Part shown: piece after piece, positions 53,823-64,000 of the stretch
Numbering within the stretch: the first letter of the stretch is position 1
Layout of the letters: every line of letters starts with the position of its first letter
Notes under the pieces: model-generated
What the model saw: only the letters and a program-made list of their open reading frames with translations
What the model was told of the DNA's origin: nothing
Databases searched by the model: none
Position numbers and translations under genes: made by a program
Origin: Ilumatobacteraceae bacterium
GTDB lineage: Bacteria > Actinomycetota > Acidimicrobiia > Acidimicrobiales > Ilumatobacteraceae
Assembly (NCBI GenBank): GCA_017859395.1
Contig: JAFMNE010000001.1
Coordinates: 62,001 to 126,000 of the forward strand
Direction: 5' to 3'
DNA: 64,000 nucleotides

Positions 53823-53855
53823 AGCGTAGGAGCCGGATGGACCGGCGACTAGCGT
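53823..53855. promoter_or_regulatory. Divergent promoters, pepN / adenosine-kinase-like gene
   Basis: Minus TACGCT at 53823-53828 (7 nt before GTG 53815) and plus TAGCGT at 53850-53855 (7 nt before GTG 53863). Confidence 0.45.
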
Positions 53856-53862
53856 GGCGCGG

Positions 53863-54846
53863 GTGACGGCATCAGCGCCCCGATACGACGTCGTCGGTAT
53901 CGGAAACGCACTCGTGGATGTAATCGCCCACGTCGACGACGACTTTCTGACGCGTCACGAGCTCGTGAAAGGGGCCATGACCCTTGTCGAAACCGATCGC
54001 GCACTCGAACTCCACCGCGCGTTGCCGACTGCGATCGAGATGAGCGGGGGATCGGCGGCGAATACGGTCTGCGGCGTGGCGAGCATGGGTGGCTCTGCGG
54101 CCTATGTGGGCAAGGTGTCTGCCGACGACCTCGGTGGTGTCTTCGACCACGATCTGCGTGCGGTGGGTGTGCGGTTCGCGCGTGCTGCACAGCACGCCGA
54201 CGTGCCGACGGGTCGCTGCATCATTGCCGTTACCGACGATGCCGAACGCACGATGAATACCTATCTGGGCGCATCGAGTCTGTTAGCTCCCAATGACATC
54301 GACGCCGAAGTCGTTGCGGCCGGTGCGGTGTTGTACATGGAGGGATACCTATTCGATCGTGACGATGCCAAGGCGGCGTTTCGACGGGCGGCGTCGATTG
54401 CTCATGACGCCGATCGCCTCGTGTCGCTCACGCTCAGCGACTCGTTCTGTGTCGATCGGCATCGCGAGGACTTCGTCGGTCTCGTCGCCGACGAGGTGGA
54501 CGTGTTGTTCGGCAATGCCGACGAGATCTGCTCGCTCTACGAGGTCGACGATCTCGACACGGCGGTCGCCGCGGTGCGAGCCGACTGTGCGATGGCGGCC
54601 ATCACCGTCGGTGCACGTGGAGCACTCGTGGCCACCGCTGACGGCCTCGTTGAGGTGCCAGCAACCCCGGTGCCCAAGGTCGTCGATACCACCGGCGCGG
54701 GCGACCTGTTCGCTGCCGGTTTTCTCTTCGGGCTGACCCATGGGCATGATCCCGTTGGCTGCGCTCGCCTCGGGGCAATCGCCGCAGGTGAGATCATCTC
54801 CCACGTCGGCCCGCGCCCACTCGTGGAGCTGCGGACGTTGATCTGA
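53863..54846 (+). CDS. PfkB-family kinase, adenosine-kinase-like
   Basis: 327-residue carbohydrate/nucleoside kinase. The N-terminal motif MSGGSAANTVCGVASMGGSAAYVGKV and the catalytic block VVDTTGAGDLFAAGFLFGLTHG (with the Asp base) are PfkB signatures. Overall layout fits the adenosine kinase branch, consistent with the two adenosine deaminases nearby; other sugar kinases remain possible. GTG 53863 is chosen because TAGCGT lies 7 nt upstream; GTG 53854 is the alternative. The stop overlaps the next start by one base (TGATG). Confidence 0.85.
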   Translation: MTASAPRYDVVGIGNALVDVIAHVDDDFLTRHELVKGAMTLVETDRALELHRALPTAIEMSGGSAANTVCGVASMGGSAAYVGKVSADDLGGVFDHDLRAVGVRFARAAQHADVPTGRCIIAVTDDAERTMNTYLGASSLLAPNDIDAEVVAAGAVLYMEGYLFDRDDAKAAFRRAASIAHDADRLVSLTLSDSFCVDRHREDFVGLVADEVDVLFGNADEICSLYEVDDLDTAVAAVRADCAMAAITVGARGALVATADGLVEVPATPVPKVVDTTGAGDLFAAGFLFGLTHGHDPVGCARLGAIAAGEIISHVGPRPLVELRTLI

Positions 54847-56441
54847 TGGGCGCTGCCCACAACATCGATCCCGCCGAGTGGCTTGCTGCCGAGCCCGATG
54901 ACGACATACGCAGCGAATTGGCCGACTTGATGGCAACCGACCCCGCAGAGGTGGCTCGCCGTTTCGCTGAACCGTTGCAGTTCGGCACCGCAGGACTGCG
55001 CGCCGCGGTGGGTGCCGGACGTAATCGAATGAACCGGCTCGTCGTGCGGGCAGCGGCCGCCGGTGTAGCCGACTATGTGCTCGCAACTGTTGTGGGTGCT
55101 GCCGAGTCCGGGATCGTCGTTGCCCGCGATGCTCGTCGCAAATCCGATCTGTTCGCTGCCGACACCGCGGCGGTATGTGCGGCGCGCGGGCTACGCGTGT
55201 GGTGGATCGATGGTGCTGTGCCCACCCCAGTGTTGGCTCATACGGTGGCAGCGACAGGTGCCGCCGCTGGGGTGATGGTGACCGCGTCGCACAACCCGCC
55301 TGAGGACAACGGCTACAAGGTGTATCTCGCAGGAGGCGCCCAGATCGTCGCTCCGGTCGATGCTGCGATCGCTGAAGCCATCGCTGCGATCGACCCCACG
55401 TGCGTGCCCATGGCCTCTCTGAACGACCCGTTGATCACCGATGTTCCTGCTGACGTTCTCTCGGCATACATCGAGCGTGTCGCGGGCGTGCGGCATCGCC
55501 TGGATGTCGGTGCGGTTCCTGTGGCCTACACCGCTCTGCACGGTGTCGGTGGTGACACGGTCTGTGCCGTCTTTGAGCGTGCCAGCCTCGGTCGACCTCA
55601 TGTGGTGACTTCGCAATTCAGCCCCGACAGCACTTTTCCCACGGTGGCATTCCCGAACCCCGAAGAACCGGGCGCCATGGATGCGGTGATCGATCTGGCG
55701 CGCACCACCGGGTGCACAATCGCGATCGCCAACGACCCCGACGCCGACCGTCTCGGCGTTGCGATTCCGACGGGCGAGGGCGAGTGGCGTCGACTGGCCG
55801 GCGATGAAATCGGGTGGCTGCTCGCCGATCATGTGCTGGCGCATACCACGGGCGACGATCGGCTCGTGGTGACCACGGTGGTGTCATCGGGGTTACTCGC
55901 ACGGATGGCCAGCGCTTATGGAGTGCATCACGCCGAAACTCTGACCGGTTTCAAGTGGATCGCCAGAGCAATTACCGAACGCCCCCATCTGCGTGCGGTC
56001 TTCGCCTACGAGCAGGCCCTGGGGTATCTCGTCTGCCCGGCACCACCCGACAAAGACGGCATCTCTGCGGCGGTGATGATGGCCGAGATCGCCGCTGTCG
56101 CAGCCAGCGAGGGGGTCACCATTGCGGATCGTCTCGCGGTAATCGCTGATCGATTCGGCGAACACCTTCTGGCCGAACGCTCGGTGGGGACGCCGGTGGG
56201 ACATGAGGCGGTCGCCGCTCTTGTCGCCCACCCACCGTCCACGCTTGGTGGCCAACCGGTCACTGACGTCGCGTACCTTGCCGATGCCATGTTGCTGCGC
56301 CTGAGTTTGGCGGGCGGGTGTCGCGTGCAGGTGCGTCCGAGTGGCACTGAACCCAAGGTGAAGATCTACGCCGAGGGCGTGGGCGTCGACCCGGGCGCAG
56401 CAGCCGACGAGATGGCACTGCTCTTGCGCGCCCACAGTTGA
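54846..56441 (+). CDS. Phosphohexomutase (phosphomannomutase/phosphopentomutase type, PMM/PGM superfamily)
   Basis: 531-residue alpha-D-phosphohexomutase. The phosphoserine loop GVMVTASHNPPEDNGYKVY, the metal loop NDPDADRLGVA, and the C-terminal phosphate-binding RPSGTEPKVKIYAEG are clear. FAEPLQFGTAGLRAAVGAG is the standard N-terminus. This length fits the PgmB/PMM type, which in several bacteria also acts as a phosphopentomutase in nucleoside catabolism, attractive given the co-transcribed adenosine-kinase-like gene. Confidence 0.9.
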   Translation: MGAAHNIDPAEWLAAEPDDDIRSELADLMATDPAEVARRFAEPLQFGTAGLRAAVGAGRNRMNRLVVRAAAAGVADYVLATVVGAAESGIVVARDARRKSDLFAADTAAVCAARGLRVWWIDGAVPTPVLAHTVAATGAAAGVMVTASHNPPEDNGYKVYLAGGAQIVAPVDAAIAEAIAAIDPTCVPMASLNDPLITDVPADVLSAYIERVAGVRHRLDVGAVPVAYTALHGVGGDTVCAVFERASLGRPHVVTSQFSPDSTFPTVAFPNPEEPGAMDAVIDLARTTGCTIAIANDPDADRLGVAIPTGEGEWRRLAGDEIGWLLADHVLAHTTGDDRLVVTTVVSSGLLARMASAYGVHHAETLTGFKWIARAITERPHLRAVFAYEQALGYLVCPAPPDKDGISAAVMMAEIAAVAASEGVTIADRLAVIADRFGEHLLAERSVGTPVGHEAVAALVAHPPSTLGGQPVTDVAYLADAMLLRLSLAGGCRVQVRPSGTEPKVKIYAEGVGVDPGAAADEMALLLRAHS

Positions 56442-56488: not shown

Positions 56489-57121
56489 TCAGATGGTGCC
56501 GAAGGCACGGTCGCCCGCGTCGCCGAGTCCGGGCACGATGAAAGCATTGTCGTCAAGGCGTTCATCAATCGCAGCCACAACGATGTGGACATCCACCAGG
56601 GCTGACTGCACCCGGGCGAGGCCCTCTGGTGCAGCGAGTAGTGACATCACCGTGATCTCACCGGTGGCACCCGCCTGGCGCAATCGGTGGACCACATCAA
56701 TGAGCGAGCCTCCCGTGGCGATCATCGGTTCAGTGATGATCACCCGGCGCGTTGCCAGATCGGCGGGCAGGCGTTCCAGGTAAGTGCTGGCCACATGGGT
56801 GTGCTCATCGCGCGCCATGCCGATCATGCCCACCGCGGCGGTGGGGATGAGGTCGCGAAGGCCTTCCACCATGGTGAGGCCGGCCCGGAGCACAGGGATG
56901 ATCGCCACATCTGCAGCCAGACGGTGAGCAGACGTCATCGCCAATGGGGTCTGGACCGACACTGGTGCAAGGGGAAGGTCGGCGGTGGCGTGCAGAGCGA
57001 GAACCTGGGCAATACGGCCCATACCGGCCGAGAAATCGGTGGTCGACGTGGATGCATCGCGGATGATCGCCAAGGTGTCGGCCACCACCGGGTGATCGAT
57101 CACAGTGACCCGAACGCTCAC
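56489..57121 (-). CDS. upp: Uracil phosphoribosyltransferase
   Basis: 210-residue PRTase converting uracil and PRPP to [20 protein letters not shown] and the PRPP loop [16 protein letters not shown] are diagnostic (the usual DPMLATGGS reads EPMIATGGS). [25 protein letters not shown] is the C-terminal uracil-binding end. Third in the PhyH-add-upp operon, with ATGA overlap with add. Confidence 0.96.
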
Positions 57122-58209
57122 CGCGCCCCCATGTCGGCCTCTGAGCGCAGCAGCGCGTAACGCGGCTTCACAATGCCATCGATAATCCGCAGCCGCTCAG
57201 GAAATGGAATGAACGCACTCTTCATCGCATTGATGGTCAGCCATTCGGCATCGGCGAGCCCCCAGCCGAAGGCCTGTGACAACTGCACCATCTCGTTCGA
57301 CATCGATGTATCCGACATCAAGCGGTTGTCGGTATTCACCGTCACCCGAAAGCGCAATCGTCGCAGGAGGCCAATTGGATGGTCGGCGATTGCGGGCACC
57401 ACACCGGTGTTCACATTCGACGTGGGGCACAACTCGAGTGGCACGCGGCGGTCACGTACGAATGCAGCGAGACGGCCGAGGCGTTCACCGTCTGGTGCCG
57501 GCTCGATGTCATCGACTATGCGCACCCCATGACCAAGCCGTGCCGCACCGCAGTACTGGAGGGCCTCCCAGATGCTCGGAAGGCCAAATGCCTCGCCAGC
57601 ATGAATGGTGGAGTGAAAGTTCTCCCGCTGCACGAACTGAAAGGCGTCGAGGTGGCGCGACGGTGGATGGCCGGCCTCGGCTCCGGCGATGTCGAATCCG
57701 ACCACACCGGCATCACGCCACCGGGTGGCCAACCGAGCGATATCCATGCTGTGCGCAGCCGTGCGCATCGCCGAGCAGATCACGGCGATGGTGATGTCGC
57801 CGGGCGTTTGAGCGCGAGTGAAGCCGGCGATGACTGCGTCCATCACCTCGTCAAGGGTGAGTCCGGCCTCGACGTGCAACTCCGGGGCGAAACGCACCTC
57901 GGCGTAGACCACGCCGTCATCGGCGAGATCACGTCCACATTCGTACGCCACCCGCTCGAGCGCATCGCGATGCTGCATCACCGCCACGGTGTGAGCAAAG
58001 GTCTCGAGGTAGAGCACCAAGTCGTTGCGTTTTGCGCCGCGATTGAACCAGCGCGCGAGTTCGTCGACGTCATGGGTGGGCAGCCCGTCGTAGCCGAATT
58101 CGCTGGCGAGTTCGACAACGCTGGCCGGGCGCAGCCCACCATCGAGATGGTCGTGCAGCAGCGCCTTTGGTGCGCGTCGGGCAAGCTCTGGTGTCAGCAG
58201 CGCGTTCAC
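57118..58209 (-). CDS. add: Adenosine deaminase (paralogue 1)
   Basis: 363-residue zinc enzyme deaminating adenosine/deoxyadenosine to inosine. The metal and catalytic motifs are [10 protein letters not shown] (HxH), [10 protein letters not shown] (His, catalytic Glu), GHGVR and [23 protein letters not shown] is also typical. Flanked by ATGA overlaps with PhyH upstream and upp downstream, so translation of all three is coupled. The second paralogue lies 0.9 kb away. Confidence 0.95.
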
Positions 58210-59078
58210 CGGTCGCTGCGATCCAGGCGACGTAGCGGCATGTCCTCGCCGCGCTGCAGCCAGTTCCAGTCGGGATAGTCGGCGGCTGCAGAGATGCAGT
58301 GGAGGGTGTAGGCATGCCGGCTCTTCGGCGAGCGGTTCACGTCGCTCCAGTGGGGCAGCCGGCCATCGAGAACGACGAGCGTTCCTGCGGGCACTTCGAG
58401 GGGCACCAGGTCATCTGGCGCAGCCGGCAGCGGTGTGGGGTCAAGATCGACGAATTCGGTGCCAGCGTCGTTGTCGCCGCGACGACGGAATTGGCGGCGC
58501 AGTGGGTCACGATGCCGGCCGGGTGCGGTCCACAAACATCCGTTGTCCAGTGTTGCGTCTTCAACCGCGAACCAGAATCCGGTGACCGAGAGCGGATCGG
58601 TATAGAGGAAGGTGGCGTCTTGGTGGCATGACACTTCACCACCGATGCCCGGTTGTTTGAAGATGTACATGCTCTGCAACGCAACGGCATCGCTGAGACC
58701 GATATCGCTGGCCACACCGGCGAGGTCATCGGTGTAGCTGAACCGTTCGAACACGTCATCGAGGTCGTGCTGGGCATGACCGATCTTGTTGACCGCAAGT
58801 GACTTGTCGCGGGTGAGATGCCCCTCAGCATCCACGGCTCCCTCTTCGAGAAAGCACCAGATGCGTCCGCCCGATGACAAGAACTCGTCATTGGAGCGAC
58901 GCTGTTGGTCCTCGGTGGTGAAGACAGTTGCAGCAGCCGTTGGTTCCCAGGCATCGACGATGTCGTCGGCGCGCTGGCGCAACTCGGCCAGTGCATCCGG
59001 GCCAACAAACCCTTCGATGGCGAGTACACCATCGCGGCCAAAAGCGGCGATCTGGGCATCATCGAGAAGGTGTCCCAC
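58206..59078 (-). CDS. PhyH-family 2-oxoglutarate/Fe(II) dioxygenase
   Basis: 290-residue phytanoyl-CoA-dioxygenase-like protein. The iron motif HxD is [11 protein letters not shown], and the distal His plus 2-oxoglutarate Arg lie in [25 protein letters not shown]. The family hydroxylates varied small molecules. Here it is the first gene of an operon with adenosine deaminase and uracil PRTase, suggesting a nucleoside-derived or related substrate (inference). GTG 59078 has TACGCT 6 nt upstream. Confidence 0.9.
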
Positions 59079-59084
59079 GTGGGC

Positions 59085-59090
59085 AGCGTA
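59085..59090 (-). promoter_or_regulatory. -10 element of PhyH-add-upp operon
   Basis: TACGCT on the minus strand ending 6 nt before GTG 59078, lying in the 62-bp gap after the second adenosine deaminase gene. Confidence 0.45.
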
Positions 59091-59140
59091 TCCGACCGTC
59101 TACGAGGCCTGCCGCGGTCGGAGCGACCGTGTGGTGATGG

Positions 59141-60220
59141 CTAGCGCGCAGCGTTGAACCAGGGGTCGACGATGTCGCGCAGCACGCCCATGCGGACCTC
59201 TCGCGGCGCGAAGCCAGACCCGATGGCGTTCGACACGAGTTGATGGACGTCATCCCAAGTCAACGTGTGCGCGGCATGGAGGGCGATGAGTTCTCCTGTG
59301 GGGGAGACATCGCTCATCAACCGGTTGTCGGTGTTGACCCCAACATTGAATCCGTGCCGGAGGAATGGGATCACCGGGTGGTCAGCCACAGAGGCCACGG
59401 CACCGATCTGGGTATTGCAGGTGGGAGCCATCTCAAGATGAATGCCCCGGTCGTAGATGTGGCGTGCGAGCGGGCCGAGGCGCAACTCACCATCCACGCG
59501 TGAGACACCACGGTCAAGTCGCACCCCGTGACCGATGCGGTGCGCGCCGTGACGCAGCGCATCCGAGATGAGTTCAAGGTCGGGTGGTTCGCTGGCGTGG
59601 AGTGTGATGTTCAGATGCGCGGTGCGGGCAATCTCGAGGGCCTCGGCATGCATCGATGGGGGAAAGCCGGTCTCGGCGCCCGCCAAGTCGAACGCAACCA
59701 CCCGGTCATCGATCTCACGCATACGATCGACGAATCGGGCGATCTCTGCGGAACGGTGTTCGGTGCGCATAGCGCACACGATCACCGAGGTGACGATGGT
59801 GTGGCCGGTTCCTGCCAGTTCAGCTTCGGCGCGCCGGATGCCCGCGGTGACGGCAGCGGTGGACGACGCGAGTGGCATGTCATGCAACTCGGGAGCAAAG
59901 CGGATCTCGGCGTAGACCACGCCGTCGGCAGCGAGGTCGTTCACGGCCTCATAGGCGATGCGTTCGATGTTGTCCTCGGTCTGCATCACCGCCAAGGTGT
60001 GCTCGAAGGTGGCGAGATAGGCGAGGAGATCGCCCGAGGCCGCCCCGGCAGTGAACCAGGCCTGCAGCGCATCTGGATCGGTGGTGGGTAGCTGTGGTGT
60101 CCAGCCGATGCGGTCGGCCAATTCGAGCACGGTTGCCACCCGTAGCCCGCCATCGAGGTGATCATGTAGGAGTGCCTTGGGAGCGGCCCGCAATGACGTG
60201 GCGTCGACCGTCAACGCCAT
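59141..60220 (-). CDS. Adenosine deaminase (paralogue 2)
   Basis: 359-residue AMP/adenosine deaminase-family enzyme, clearly related to the paralogue at 57.1-58.2 kb ([38 protein letters not shown]). It differs at two places around the active site: the Gly of HAGE is Ser (LHASEPPD), and the CPTSN motif reads APTCN. Catalytic His and Glu are kept, so activity is likely, perhaps on a different purine nucleoside or base. The ATG lies 1 nt after the nucleoside permease stop, so it belongs to the transporter operon. Confidence 0.92.
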   Translation of the reverse strand: MALTVDATSLRAAPKALLHDHLDGGLRVATVLELADRIGWTPQLPTTDPDALQAWFTAGAASGDLLAYLATFEHTLAVMQTEDNIERIAYEAVNDLAADGVVYAEIRFAPELHDMPLASSTAAVTAGIRRAEAELAGTGHTIVTSVIVCAMRTEHRSAEIARFVDRMREIDDRVVAFDLAGAETGFPPSMHAEALEIARTAHLNITLHASEPPDLELISDALRHGAHRIGHGVRLDRGVSRVDGELRLGPLARHIYDRGIHLEMAPTCNTQIGAVASVADHPVIPFLRHGFNVGVNTDNRLMSDVSPTGELIALHAAHTLTWDDVHQLVSNAIGSGFAPREVRMGVLRDIVDPWFNAAR

Positions 60221-60221
60221 G

Positions 60222-61466
60222 TCAGTGAGCGCTACCCGGTCGGTACGGAACCCCCGCGCGTGCCGGCGGTCGTAATCGTTGGCTCGCAGTTCCGAGCACC
60301 ACCAGGGTGATCACGTAGGGCAGTGATTGCGTGAGCGACTCTGGCACCTCGTCAACGGTGAGATAGGCCAGCATCGCCACCGCTACCACAGCTGCAGCCG
60401 CGAGGGTGCGGCGCATCGACGCCCGCACAAGCCCCGTCACAGCTGCGAGTGCGGCGACGATCGCGATGAACAAGAACAGGCCGGTGATCGAGTTTCCTGC
60501 CACCAGTTTGAGGCCCTCGGAGTATCCGAACACCGCGGCCCCGCCGAGCACGCCGGTGGGGCGCCAGTTGCCAAAGATCATCGTGGCCAGTCCGATGAAG
60601 CCACGGCCCGCGGTCTGGCCTTGGCGGTAGTACGACGACGACACAATCGCCAAGAATCCGCCACCGAGACCTGCGAACGCCCCGGAGATCAACAGTCCCT
60701 GATAACGAACGCGGATCACGTTGACACCAAGGCTCTCGGCCGACTCCGGTGATTCGCCCGATGACCGAAGCCGAAGGCCGAAGGTGGTGCGCCACAGAAT
60801 CCATGCCGACAGTGGGACCAAGACGATGGCGATCAGCGACGCCCACGACACCCCATTGGTCAGGCCGCGCGCAATGCCGGCGACGTCGCCGATGATGAAC
60901 CATCCGCGTTCCTCAAGGTTGCCGAGGATGTCCGGACTGGTCCAGCCGCCGATACGACCTCCCGACAGGAACGGCACATCGAAGCGGCCGATGGCTGATG
61001 ATTGCGGGGGAGATTGGCTGATGCCGCCCTGGGGTTGGCCAACGAAGGCCAGTTCGCTGAGATACCGCACGCCGAAGAAGGCGAGCAGGTTGATGACCAC
61101 ACCTGAAATTACTTGGTCGATGCCGAAGCGAATCGTTGAGATGGCGTGAATACCGCCGCCGATCATCCCGCCGCCAATTGCGAACAACAGGCCGACCCAC
61201 GGGCCGAACTTCCATGCGCCGAACGCACCGAACCAGGTTCCAAGGATCATCATGCCCTCGATGCCGATGTTCAAGATCCCCACACGCTCGGCCCAGAGGC
61301 CGGCGAGGCCGGCCAGCAAGATCGGCACGGTGAGACGCAAGGTGGCGCCGATGGTGCCCGACGACGTGAGATCGTCAAAACCGGTCCAGGTTCGTACGAC
61401 CGACATCGTGACGACGAACACGACCATGATGGTGACGATGCGCGGCATGCGCTGCAGAAGGTTCAC
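60222..61466 (-). CDS. Nucleoside ABC transporter permease (BmpC/NupQ-like)
   Basis: 414-residue branched-chain/nucleoside-type permease with about ten hydrophobic segments. VPILLAGLAGLWAERVGILNIGIEGMM is the family signature; GVNVIRVRYQGLLISGAFAGLGGGFLAI holds the EAA-like loop. GTG 61466 overlaps the preceding stop (GTGA). Together with the second permease and the double ATPase it forms a BMP-type purine nucleoside importer; the substrate-binding protein must lie beyond 64 kb. Confidence 0.92.
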   Translation of the reverse strand: MNLLQRMPRIVTIMVVFVVTMSVVRTWTGFDDLTSSGTIGATLRLTVPILLAGLAGLWAERVGILNIGIEGMMILGTWFGAFGAWKFGPWVGLLFAIGGGMIGGGIHAISTIRFGIDQVISGVVINLLAFFGVRYLSELAFVGQPQGGISQSPPQSSAIGRFDVPFLSGGRIGGWTSPDILGNLEERGWFIIGDVAGIARGLTNGVSWASLIAIVLVPLSAWILWRTTFGLRLRSSGESPESAESLGVNVIRVRYQGLLISGAFAGLGGGFLAIVSSSYYRQGQTAGRGFIGLATMIFGNWRPTGVLGGAAVFGYSEGLKLVAGNSITGLFLFIAIVAALAAVTGLVRASMRRTLAAAAVVAVAMLAYLTVDEVPESLTQSLPYVITLVVLGTASQRLRPPARAGVPYRPGSAH

Positions 61467-62614
61467 GATGCCTCCCCGGAATCGGTCTGTGCTCGCATCT
61501 GTTCAGCGGTGCGCGCGTTCAGGCGGCGGATGGTGGCTTCGTTCACGACGACGACGGCCAGAACGATGATCGACTGCATGACCTTCACGATCGAGTTCGG
61601 CACGTCAGCCAACTGCAGCACCGCCGATGTCGAGTCCAAGAAACCGAACAGCAGAGCCGCGATCACAATGCCGATCGGATGGTTGCGGCCCAGCAACGCG
61701 ACGGTGATGCCAGCGAATCCGAACTGCGTCGGTGTGGCACTCGGACCGTAGGCGTAGGTCTCGCCGATCACGCTGTACATCGCGACGAGTCCAGCGATCG
61801 CTCCCGAGATCAACATCGCCGCGATGATCATGCGGCGTGCACCGATACCGGCCACCTCAGCAGCGTTCGGGTTGTATCCGCTGGCGCGCAGTCGGAAGCC
61901 GAAACGACTGCGGTACACCAGCACCCAGAATGCGCCGGCCGTCGCCAGAGCAACCAAGAACATCGCGTTCAGTCGGCCGTCGACGAGGTCGGGCATCTGG
62001 CCGGATTCCGCGATGATCGTGGTTTTGACATTCAGGCCTTCAACCGTGTCATCACGGAAGAAGTTCTCGAATAGCCACTGGATCACCGACAACGCGATGT
62101 AGTTGAGCATGATCGTCGAGATCACCTCGTGGATGTTGCGGTACACCTTCAAAATGCCCGAGATCGATGCCCACAGCGCACCGGCCGCCATTGCGACCAG
62201 AAGGATGAACACAATGTGTGCCACGGCGGGCAGCGACACCCTGCTGCCGGCTTCGGCGGCGATCAGCGCTGCGAAGAGGTACTGGCCCTCGACCCCGATG
62301 TTGAACAAATTCATTTTGAACCCGACAGCAACTGCTGTCGCTGAGAAAATCAGCGGTGTTGACCGCCGCAGCATCTCCAGCAATTTGTTGCTATCTCCAG
62401 CGGTCTCCAAGATGGTGGAATACGCATCGACCGGGCTTTTGCCGGTCACGAGCAGCAGTACCGCACAGATCGACAGTGCAATCGCCACTGCGGCGAGCGA
62501 ACTGGCGACGGTGGTCAGTGAGGTGCGGAGGCTGCCGGCGTTGCTGCCGGTTGTGATGCGCGAGAGGAGACCGCTCAGGCCGGTTGGGCGTTCGGTGGTG
62601 GCGGTGTCGGTCAT
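61463..62614 (-). CDS. Nucleoside ABC transporter permease (BmpB/NupP-like)
   Basis: 383-residue permease. TPLIFSATAVAVGFKMNLFNIGVEGQYLFAAL is the family signature, and ASGYNPNAAEVAGIGARRMIIAAMLISGAIAGL the coupling loop. A longer N-terminal cytosolic region precedes the first helix (VASSLAAVAIALSICAVLLLV). ATGA overlap with the ATPase gene upstream and GTGA with the second permease downstream show tight translational coupling. Confidence 0.93.
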   Translation of the reverse strand: MTDTATTERPTGLSGLLSRITTGSNAGSLRTSLTTVASSLAAVAIALSICAVLLLVTGKSPVDAYSTILETAGDSNKLLEMLRRSTPLIFSATAVAVGFKMNLFNIGVEGQYLFAALIAAEAGSRVSLPAVAHIVFILLVAMAAGALWASISGILKVYRNIHEVISTIMLNYIALSVIQWLFENFFRDDTVEGLNVKTTIIAESGQMPDLVDGRLNAMFLVALATAGAFWVLVYRSRFGFRLRASGYNPNAAEVAGIGARRMIIAAMLISGAIAGLVAMYSVIGETYAYGPSATPTQFGFAGITVALLGRNHPIGIVIAALLFGFLDSTSAVLQLADVPNSIVKVMQSIIVLAVVVVNEATIRRLNARTAEQMRAQTDSGEAS

Positions 62615-64000
62615 GAGGCCGCTCCGGTGGTGGCACCGGTCATATAGCCGCCGAGAATGGCGGGGCTGACGTCGTCGGGGTCAACCTCGGCAGCGATGCG
62701 GCCGTCGAACATGACCAGCAAGGTGTCGGACAAGCCGATGAGCTCATCGAGGTCGGCCGACACCAGCAAGATGGCGCATCCGGCATCACGTGCATCGCGG
62801 AGTTCAGCCCACACGGCGGCCTGCGCGCCAACGTCGATACCACGAGTCGGGTGTGCAGCTATCAGCACGGCGGGTTCGGTGATCATGGAGCGTCCAACCA
62901 CCAGTTTTTGTTGGTTGCCACCCGACAGGGCGAAGGCGGGCACGGTCTCGTTGGGGGTCAGAACGCCGAAGCGGTCGATGATGTCGCGTGTGGAGGAGCG
63001 TGCGGCGCCGATGTTCACCAAGGGGCCGGTCGACAGCTCTGGTGATGCCTCGCGTCCGAGGAGTCCGTTCTCCCACAGCGACGAGTTCAACATGAGCGCC
63101 TCTCGGTGGCGATCGAAGGGGATGTAGGCCACACCGGCATCGTGGCGGTCGCGCACACTGGCAGTGGAGATGTCATCACCATCCACTATCACCGTGCCCG
63201 TGGCGGGCCGCAATCCGATGATCGCGGTGCACAGTTCGTATTGGCCGTTGCCCTCCACCCCGGCGATGCCGACGATCTCGCCAGCGCGCACCGCGAAGGT
63301 GGCGTCCTCGACTACCAATCGGCCGTCAGCGCCAACGACGGACAAGTTGGCAACTGTCAGTCGCTCGGTCTCGCCGATGTCGGTCGTACGACCGCCGGGA
63401 GTCGGTAGTTCGGATCCAACCATGAGTTCGGCCAGACCGGCCCGATCGATGTCGGCTGGCGCCACGCTGGCCACTGTGGTGCCCTGACGCATCACAGTGA
63501 TGGCATCAGAGACCTGCAGCACCTCGTCAAGTTTGTGGGAGATGAAGATGACAGTGGTTCCGTCGTTGACGAGTCGACGCAGAGTGGCGAAGAGTTCGTC
63601 GACCTCCTCGGGCACGAGAACTGCCGTCGGCTCGTCCAGAATCACGATGTCCGCACCGCGATAGAGAACTTTCAGGATCTCGACGCGTTGGCGTTCTCCG
63701 ACGCCGAGTTCGGACACCGGGGTATCGAGATCGAGGGTGACGCCGACGGTGCGCATCAACTCGGTGAGGTCAGTGCGTGCACTGGCGGCATCGATGACGC
63801 CCCGATGGGCGGGTTCGCTGCCCAAGATGATGTTCTCGAGCACGGAGAAGTTGTCGGCCAGCATGAAGTGCTGGTGCACCATGCCAATGCCCGCGGCGAT
63901 GGCATCGGCAGGGGACTTCATGTGCATGTCAGTGCCGTTCACGGCAACCGTTCCGGCATCTGGTCGGTGCATGCCGTACAGAGTCTTCATGAGTGTTGAT
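62611..64000 (-). CDS. Nucleoside ABC transporter ATP-binding protein, 5' truncated
   Basis: Two fused ABC domains, as in NupO/RbsA/YufO-type proteins. The window ends inside the first Walker A (frame continues as STLMKTLYGM to base 64000), so about 40 N-terminal residues are missing. The first domain has ELGVGERQRVEILKVLYRGADIVILDEPTAVL, the second VEGNGQYELCTAIIG (degenerate Walker A), ALSGGNQQKLVVGRSM and AAHPTRGIDVGAQ. It drives nucleoside uptake with the two downstream permeases. The ATG at 63990 is internal. Confidence 0.93.
   Translation of the reverse strand, partial: STLMKTLYGMHRPDAGTVAVNGTDMHMKSPADAIAAGIGMVHQHFMLADNFSVLENIILGSEPAHRGVIDAASARTDLTELMRTVGVTLDLDTPVSELGVGERQRVEILKVLYRGADIVILDEPTAVLVPEEVDELFATLRRLVNDGTTVIFISHKLDEVLQVSDAITVMRQGTTVASVAPADIDRAGLAELMVGSELPTPGGRTTDIGETERLTVANLSVVGADGRLVVEDATFAVRAGEIVGIAGVEGNGQYELCTAIIGLRPATGTVIVDGDDISTASVRDRHDAGVAYIPFDRHREALMLNSSLWENGLLGREASPELSTGPLVNIGAARSSTRDIIDRFGVLTPNETVPAFALSGGNQQKLVVGRSMITEPAVLIAAHPTRGIDVGAQAAVWAELRDARDAGCAILLVSADLDELIGLSDTLLVMFDGRIAAEVDPDDVSPAILGGYMTGATTGAAS

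Follow-up and report, generated by a model that had tools for sequence, protein, structure and literature searches.

A PHYHD1-type dioxygenase in a nucleoside import and salvage operon of Acidimicrobiales, with a predicted step for ribose-methylated nucleosides

In actinobacteria, nucleoside salvage operons generally follow the arrangement Bmp-ABC-permease-permease-cdd-deoA-add-upp (ABC, ATP-binding cassette). An operon of this kind lies at the end of a 64,000-nucleotide stretch of the draft genome (2.25 Mb) of an Ilumatobacteraceae bacterium of the order Acidimicrobiales; this whole stretch, positions 62,001 to 126,000 of contig JAFMNE010000001.1 (G000:C53:62001-126000 in the numbering used here), is referred to as the window. 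Relatives of the window carry the same importer and salvage genes as the described operons, whereas the operon of the window has a PHYHD1-type dioxygenase and a second deaminase inserted and is without deoA and cdd.

The closest described enzymes for the inserted dioxygenase are the PHYHD1-type demethylases (PMC12709175; Nucleic Acids Research, December 2025). The catabolism of 2′-O-methylated nucleosides had been largely unexplored before, and the substrate of PHYHD1 was assigned in late 2025. FJS, an enzyme from a soil metagenome, and human PHYHD1 demethylate free 2′-O-methyl nucleosides, and activity was also seen for other animal, plant, fungal, viral, and bacterial members, including three further active bacterial enzymes (PMC12709175). 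Of the substrates tested, nucleotides were left untouched by FJS and human PHYHD1, and RNA by FJS and the human and plant enzymes (PMC12709175). In a docking model of human PHYHD1, K102, H105, Q139, W277, F161, and S154 surround the nucleoside (PMC12709175). A text search of its main text returned no operon or transporter context for a PHYHD1-type gene, and no bacterial operon joining a PHYHD1-type enzyme to a nucleoside importer was found among the results listed by searches of one open-access library. The demethylase activity, like the salvage enzymes, had been described before.

From the gene order, the closeness to PHYHD1 in sequence and fold, the residue identity with human PHYHD1, and the conservation of linkage, all of which were observed in this analysis, the region is probably an import-and-salvage operon for RNA-derived nucleosides, with a step for ribose-methylated ones through a PHYHD1-type 2′-O-demethylase. 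The demethylase activity of the window protein is predicted from its family, fold, and contact residues, the activity of relatives having been shown by others (PMC12709175).

The operon and its dioxygenase

On the minus strand, the order of genes is ABC ATPase, permease, permease, ADD2, PhyH, ADD1, upp:

62611..63999, minus strand: ABC importer ATPase with two ABC_tran stretches (PF00005; frame traced to its start in locus L062)
61463..62614, minus strand: ABC importer permease 1, of nucleoside/Bmp type by context (PF02653, BPD_transp_2; operon position conserved)
60222..61466, minus strand: ABC importer permease 2 (PF02653, BPD_transp_2; operon position conserved)
59141..60220, minus strand: ADD2, a PF00962 deaminase of 359 amino acids with HASE (Ser210) and APTCN (Cys268), falling in one clade (Pfam, motifs, tree, model)
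58206..59078, minus strand: PhyH, a PHYHD1-type Fe(II)/2-oxoglutarate (2OG) dioxygenase of 290 amino acids, predicted 2′-O-methyl nucleoside demethylase (Pfam, PDB match, residues, model)
57118..58209, minus strand: ADD1, by NF006847, TIGR01430, and tree an ordinary actinobacterial adenosine deaminase of 363 amino acids
56489..57121, minus strand: upp, uracil phosphoribosyltransferase (UPRTase in Pfam; TIGR01091 229.2 bits, above the cut-off of 208.35)

An original prediction, made from the letters of the window alone, had described two diverged deaminases flanking a dioxygenase, the first coupled to PhyH and upp and the second to the importer. This arrangement was borne out. Both deaminases belong to PF00962 (348.5 bits for add1 and 254.0 for add2, cut-off 27) and are 49% identical, with PhyH (PF05721, 143.8 bits, cut-off 22) between them, and a profile search found two PF00962 genes in the draft genome, namely ADD1 and ADD2. 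GTGA stop/start overlaps join PhyH to add1 and add1 to upp, and the permease at 60222-61466 is separated from add2 by 1 base. The gap of 62 bases between add2 and PhyH was absent from that prediction.

By sequence and model, the dioxygenase of the window is a PHYHD1-type protein. A sequence search of the PDB returned human PHYHD1 at an E-value of 3.7e-60, with EvdO2 (5.7e-11) and human PHYH (1.4e-4) behind it. The AlphaFold2 model, with a mean predicted local distance difference test score (pLDDT) of 91.9, matches human PHYHD1 with a Z of 36.2, a root-mean-square deviation of 1.8 over 270 residues, and 41% identity; other structures follow at Z 23.7 and below (human PHYH, 23.4; EctD, 21.8). 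The HxD...H motif, formed by H152, D154, and H243, is the same as in human PHYHD1, as is R254, the 2OG-binding arginine. The six docked residues of human PHYHD1, K102/H105/Q139/S154/F161/W277, correspond to K98/H101/Q135/S150/F157/W273 in the window protein and are all identical (docking from PMC12709175). In an alignment of 25 rows (A2), comprising the window protein and 24 homologues at 49-71% identity after 8 rows had been dropped beforehand, the K, H, Q, and W contacts are invariant in all 25 rows, the window included; at position 157, 22 rows have F and the other 3 have Y. The segment matching the PHYHD1-specific helix near the cavity opening (human Q56-L71) could be aligned, and the model has short helices at 58-61 and 64-67 there, with a mean pLDDT of 61 at residues 51-60. 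Among the database matches listed, the nearest over PhyH is an Actinomycetota metagenome-assembled genome (MAG) at 97% identity, and further close ones come from Ilumatobacteraceae, Ilumatobacter, Acidimicrobiales, and Acidimicrobiaceae. The window protein therefore shares with the PHYHD1/FJS demethylases the PhyH fold, the metal-binding triad, and the nucleoside contacts of the human enzyme, but differs in that its gene lies inside a nucleoside importer and salvage operon, whereas FJS was found by functional screening (PMC12709175).

Conservation of the gene neighbourhood

Linkage was counted when an importer or salvage gene lay within 4 kb of PhyH. Neighbours were labelled by blast against reference proteins, by which further nucleoside genes could be missed, and draft genomes may miss genes. 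For cdd, deoA, deoC, and nucleoside hydrolase, the references were initially identified by eye; Pfam and NCBIfam searches then confirmed them (nucleoside hydrolase with Pfam only, below the NCBIfam cut-offs). The locus sets (relatives, order, and longer actinobacterial loci) overlap, with some contigs in two sets.

PhyH matches at E ≤ 0.001 occur in 44 of 61 genomes (the window's own and 60 relatives), often as weak paralogues. Of the 29 loci retrieved around the best matches listed, 28 are linked (importer in 20, salvage gene in 28), the exception being L054, and the usual order is Bmp-ABC-permease-permease-(ADD2)-PhyH-ADD1-upp. Since the arrangement recurs in relatives, it is more than chance. 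In a sample of the order, a PHYHD1-type gene is found in 69 of 298 genomes at E ≤ 1e-60. From these 69, 33 loci with flanks were picked by hand to span many families, the deaminase positions being already known; importer genes are near PhyH in 29, salvage genes in 23, and either within 4 kb in 32, the unlinked L185 lying on a contig of 3.6 kb. As a control, loci of paralogous PhyH genes showed linkage in 0 of 20. The original prediction had named a loss of the PhyH linkage in relatives as one result that would speak against it; because PhyH keeps its nucleoside-gene neighbours across the order, the prediction withstands this check.

Across the 69 genomes, the deaminase lies within 250 bp of PhyH in 30 and up to 3 kb away in 9 more (39 of 69 in total), with another 5 at 3-10 kb. 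These distances use only deaminase matches to ADD1 at E ≤ 1e-60 and are low as counts of adjacency, because deaminase pieces also lie near PhyH in G487 (L198), G572 (L194), and G682 (L200), three genomes entered here with a distant or missing deaminase. Variant arrangements include importer-cdd-deoA-PhyH-add and importer-PhyH without a labelled salvage gene near, while locus L058 has PNP-amidohydrolase-cdd-PhyH with deoC and a thymidine kinase close by. In a sample of the phylum, 11 of 396 genomes carry a PHYHD1-type gene at E ≤ 1e-30, all of the same order.

A gene of QueF-II (preQ1 synthase) type adjoins PhyH or ADD2 in three relatives, at L042:10059-10445, L047:2016-2459, and L044:13709, each on the plus strand. 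The first two exceed the TIGR03139 cut-off of 86.9 bits (98.9 and 93.6, respectively), and the L044 copy was assigned by clustering only. These neighbours are another link to modified nucleosides. A plastocyanin-type copper-binding protein stands beside the importer or PhyH at L044:12225, L049:8265, and L051:8315 (by Pfam for L051 and L049, by clustering for L044); an identity as deoA for this group (c21) was rejected upon finding the copper-binding domain.

A scan of GTDB genomes gave at least 549 relatives among at least 598 pattern matches, and the counts that follow refer to the best 80 of these at least 549. "Longer" loci are those whose flanks add up to at least 4 kb, with 34 from Actinomycetota and 41 from other phyla. 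In Actinomycetota, linkage to an importer or salvage gene holds for 32 of 34 longer loci and for 2 of 3 shorter ones (shorter loci of other phyla, 0 of 2); the unlinked loci of Actinomycetota are L130, L143, and the short L123. The four linked loci beyond Actinomycetota belong to Pelagibius (Bmp-ABC-permease-permease-cdd-PNP-deoC-deoA-PhyH, gene identities confirmed), Curvivirga (ABC-permease-permease-cdd-PNP-deoC-deoA, an unlabelled frame, PhyH, add), an alphaproteobacterial MAG (deoA-PhyH-add), and a Woeseiaceae MAG. In the three alphaproteobacterial loci, PhyH thus lies within other salvage operons, and in two of them (L126 and L163) it adjoins an adenosine deaminase of another subfamily, which passes TIGR01430 and has PRK09358.1-3 as its best NCBIfam model, at a score just under the cut-off of that model. 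As these deaminases are just 27-30% identical to ADD1, the PhyH-deaminase pairing in L126 and L163 probably arose independently. No labelled importer or salvage gene was seen near PhyH in Burkholderiales, SAR324, Kiloniella, or myxobacteria. Ten neighbours examined there and elsewhere (Kiloniella, SAR324, Janthinobacterium, Polyangium, an oceanospirillacean, an acidobacteriote, and Woeseiaceae) are of MFS, DUF4269, M20 peptidase, LysR, chemotaxis, LysE, and GST types, with a TIM-barrel protein just under its cut-off and two proteins without a Pfam match. A universal PhyH-add-upp operon was rejected on these counts, outside Actinomycetota a labelled salvage gene within 4 kb being found in 4 of 41 longer loci. 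Thus, one order shows strong linkage, a few proteobacteria show it again, and most of the other carriers observed lack it.

The two deaminases

ADD1 is, by profile and tree, an ordinary actinobacterial adenosine deaminase. It exceeds the cut-offs of both adenosine deaminase models (NF006847, 550.2 against 412 bits; TIGR01430, 236.2 against 216.55), whereas ADD2, with its HASE motif and Cys268, falls just below both (395.2 and 205.9, respectively). The motifs are those named in the original prediction, HAGE/CPTSN in ADD1 and HASE/APTCN in ADD2. In a quick tree of 87 deaminases, with support from the Shimodaira-Hasegawa-like approximate likelihood ratio test (SH-aLRT), no bootstrap, and long branches, ADD1 falls among ordinary actinobacterial enzymes. 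The 18 HASE sequences of this tree form one clade (SH-aLRT 99) with members from three or more family-level groups within the order (f1, f17, and f97).

Residues were compared over 113 sequences in the position numbering of adenosine deaminase (ADA), in which H15, H17, H214, E217, H238, and D295 have catalytic roles. Serine at position 216 is accompanied by cysteine at 265 in 26 of 26 sequences and glycine at 216 by serine at 265 in 87 of 87; the rows were pre-grouped by HASE or HAGE, so that only position 265 is an independent split, and the two genes of the window are counted twice. A change from C to A at position 262 is found in 21 of the 26 HASE rows. The changes of the ADD2 clade, G216S and S265C, sit beside the catalytic site. 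The site itself is kept: positions 15, 17, 214, 217, 238, and 295, together with 19, 184, and 296, are identical in ADD1-type and ADD2 sequences, and the six catalytic residues are present in 100% of the 26 HASE rows (which include the gene of the window twice). Asp19, the reader of the 5′-hydroxyl in ADA, is kept in 113 of 113 sequences, and the other ADA contact positions compared are mostly unchanged. Site 216 may be a sensitive one, since a Gly216Arg allele of human ADA is described for a patient with ADA deficiency (PMC9853035).

The best match of the ADD2 model (pLDDT 94.1) is mouse adenosine deaminase, with a Z of 44.4. The ADAL/MAPDA N6-methyl-AMP deaminases share the PF00962 fold (Z 41.8 for 8qch and 40.9 for 6ijn), but ADD2 is nearer to the adenosine deaminases and retains the Asp19 position of ADA. 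Cytokinin-type, adenine-deaminase, and ADAL-like roles for ADD2 were set aside, as nothing in the sequence or the model pointed toward them. On the expectation of the original prediction that the second paralogue differs in substrate, the observations point both ways: this paralogue forms a supported clade with clade-specific residues, separate from the ordinary adenosine deaminases that surround the first paralogue, but its catalytic residues and Asp19 are those of the first. A substrate different from that of ADD1 is possible, judging from these sequence differences.

Where members of the window's genus show both genes, ADD2 stands between permease and PhyH, a place that it also takes in two genomes of another family (L188 and L189). 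From 12 genomes of the order sample with ADD2, listed by hand, PhyH is present in 9 (Fisher p 1.5e-4, ignoring relatedness), G052, G569, and G667 being without PhyH at E ≤ 1e-60. The idea that ADD2 is an obligate partner of PhyH was rejected, given those three genomes and the 60 of 69 PhyH genomes that lie outside the 12. ADD2-type deaminases without PhyH nearby stand behind an importer in L211 and L212, and without a labelled importer close in L213 and L214. Divergent HAGE deaminases, 44-50% identical to ADD1, directly follow PhyH in families f96 and f118 (L195:9124, L196:8729, and L206:8747) and branch apart from ordinary ADD1.

Proposed route, competing explanations, and surroundings of the operon

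In the proposed route, the ABC importer would bring nucleosides into the cell, as its permease and ATPase families and the Bmp gene of relatives suggest. With O2, Fe(II), and 2OG, the PHYHD1-type dioxygenase would then oxidise the 2′-O-methyl group of free 2′-O-methyladenosine, -guanosine, -cytidine, and -uridine (and 2′-O-methylinosine), releasing formaldehyde and yielding the ordinary nucleoside. ADD1, by its family, would deaminate adenosine, and ADD2, by its residues a putative second nucleoside aminohydrolase, may take a modified adenosine, with 2′-O-methyl- or N6-methyl-adenosine as a guess. Nucleoside cleavage may fall to genes elsewhere in the genome, where there are two PNP-family, two nucleoside-hydrolase-family, and three cytidine/deoxycytidylate-deaminase-family genes, and Upp would recycle uracil. 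In phyhd1 knock-out zebrafish, a small rise of free 2′-O-methyladenosine was ascribed to its rapid deamination to 2′-O-methylinosine (PMC12709175), on account of which one of the two deaminases may plausibly act on 2′-O-methyladenosine. The oxidative processing of a modified nucleoside envisaged in the original prediction is well supported, by the PHYHD1-type protein, the demethylation of free 2′-O-methyl nucleosides by tested members (PMC12709175), and the linkage conserved in the order.

Several points weigh against a demethylation step in this operon. The carriage of 2′-O-methyl nucleosides by the importer is itself inferred. Position 150, one of the six contacts, varies among homologues, with S in 5 of the 25 A2 rows. 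None of 20 paralogous PhyH proteins of relatives has the complete K/H/Q/W set, but as a control this has its flaws: in one alignment, K and W fall in unaligned columns for all 20, and the other, poor for most paralogues, gives paralogue L226 the H, Q, and W. In the order sample, the deaminase is on another contig in 14 of 69 genomes, on the same contig but distant in 3, and missing at the cut-off in 8, and other phyla are linked in only 4 of 41 longer loci. In the published work, human PHYH was inactive and one enzyme accepted only 2′-O-methylguanosine (PMC12709175). The same work states the conservation of K/H/Q/W for the tested non-bacterial enzymes and describes the bacterial ones with Tyr in place of F161 (PMC12709175); at this site the window protein thus looks more like human PHYHD1 than FJS.

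The dioxygenase might instead oxidise or hydroxylate another nucleoside, for instance 2′-deoxynucleosides at C2′, feeding DNA nucleosides into ribonucleoside salvage. C2′ hydroxylation of 2′-deoxynucleosides is the reaction reported for PDN2′H of Neurospora, an enzyme named in the same report, the substrate table of which has no 2′-deoxynucleosides and so leaves room for a 2′-hydroxylase (PMC12709175). The operon context would suit any nucleoside substrate, and deoA, deoC, cdd, or tk adjoin PhyH in several relatives. Such a substrate is nonetheless improbable, for the protein is much closer to PHYHD1, with its shown activity of 2′-O-demethylation, than to any other solved structure found, and all six docked contact residues are identical to the human ones as published (PMC12709175). 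That the gene order is accidental and the role of PhyH unrelated to nucleosides is hardly credible: 37 of the 41 longer loci beyond Actinomycetota are without a labelled gene within 4 kb, but the order set, which covers many families and is linked at 32 of its 33 loci (0 of 20 for the paralogous ones), already contradicts such an accident.

For ADD2 alone, a drifted second adenosine/2′-deoxyadenosine deaminase of normal specificity is a serious contender, if somewhat short of an even chance. Its nine compared ADA positions, the same as in ADD1-type sequences, its fold nearest to the adenosine deaminases, and the 3 of 12 ADD2 genomes without PhyH at the cut-off all fit simple drift. The strict pairing of residues 216 and 265 over 113 sequences, the single clade of 18 HASE tree rows, the scores of ADD2 under both cut-offs passed by ADD1, and its retention alongside ADD1 in the genus genomes having it argue against simple drift. 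A further-reaching proposal, rather unlikely on present grounds, is that Acidimicrobiales possess a dedicated pathway of import, PHYHD1-type 2′-O-demethylation, and a HASE/Cys deaminase clade evolved for 2′-O-methyladenosine, N6-methyladenosine, or N6,2′-O-dimethyladenosine; if true, such a pathway would keep methylated nucleosides from kinases and polymerases. As for the probable reading, an import-and-salvage operon with a demethylation step, a conserved bacterial operon tying a PHYHD1-type enzyme to nucleoside import and salvage is independent evolutionary support for the demethylase function. The operon suggests a scavenging of methylated nucleosides, set free by RNA decay, in free-living bacteria, and it offers simple test cases in one dioxygenase, two deaminases, and one importer.

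Two genes of the opposite strand converge on upp, a position kept in many genomes of the family:

54846..56441, plus strand: phosphohexomutase-family protein (PGM), under every curated cut-off listed, with a putative role in sugar-phosphate recycling
53854..54846, plus strand: PfkB-family kinase, under every curated cut-off listed

At the other end, the locus has the ATPase and two PF02653 permeases of a Bmp-type importer, and the ABC ATPase starts 140 bases past the end of the window (C53:126140). Contig C53 ends about 200 bases upstream of this start, and a Bmp (PF02608) gene heads the operon in many relatives. The single Bmp gene found in the draft genome, G000:C23:67157-68147, reaches the end of contig C23, its frame extending beyond the usual Bmp end, and at the end of C53 there is a short open frame directly preceding the ABC gene. 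This short frame showed no resemblance to the termini of Bmp proteins from relatives; C23 and C53 might be neighbours in the genome. Between the short frame and the ABC ATPase gene, at about 64230-64260 in window numbering (on C53, past the window end), the folded sequence forms a strong GC-rich hairpin followed by T's, which looks like a terminator or attenuator.

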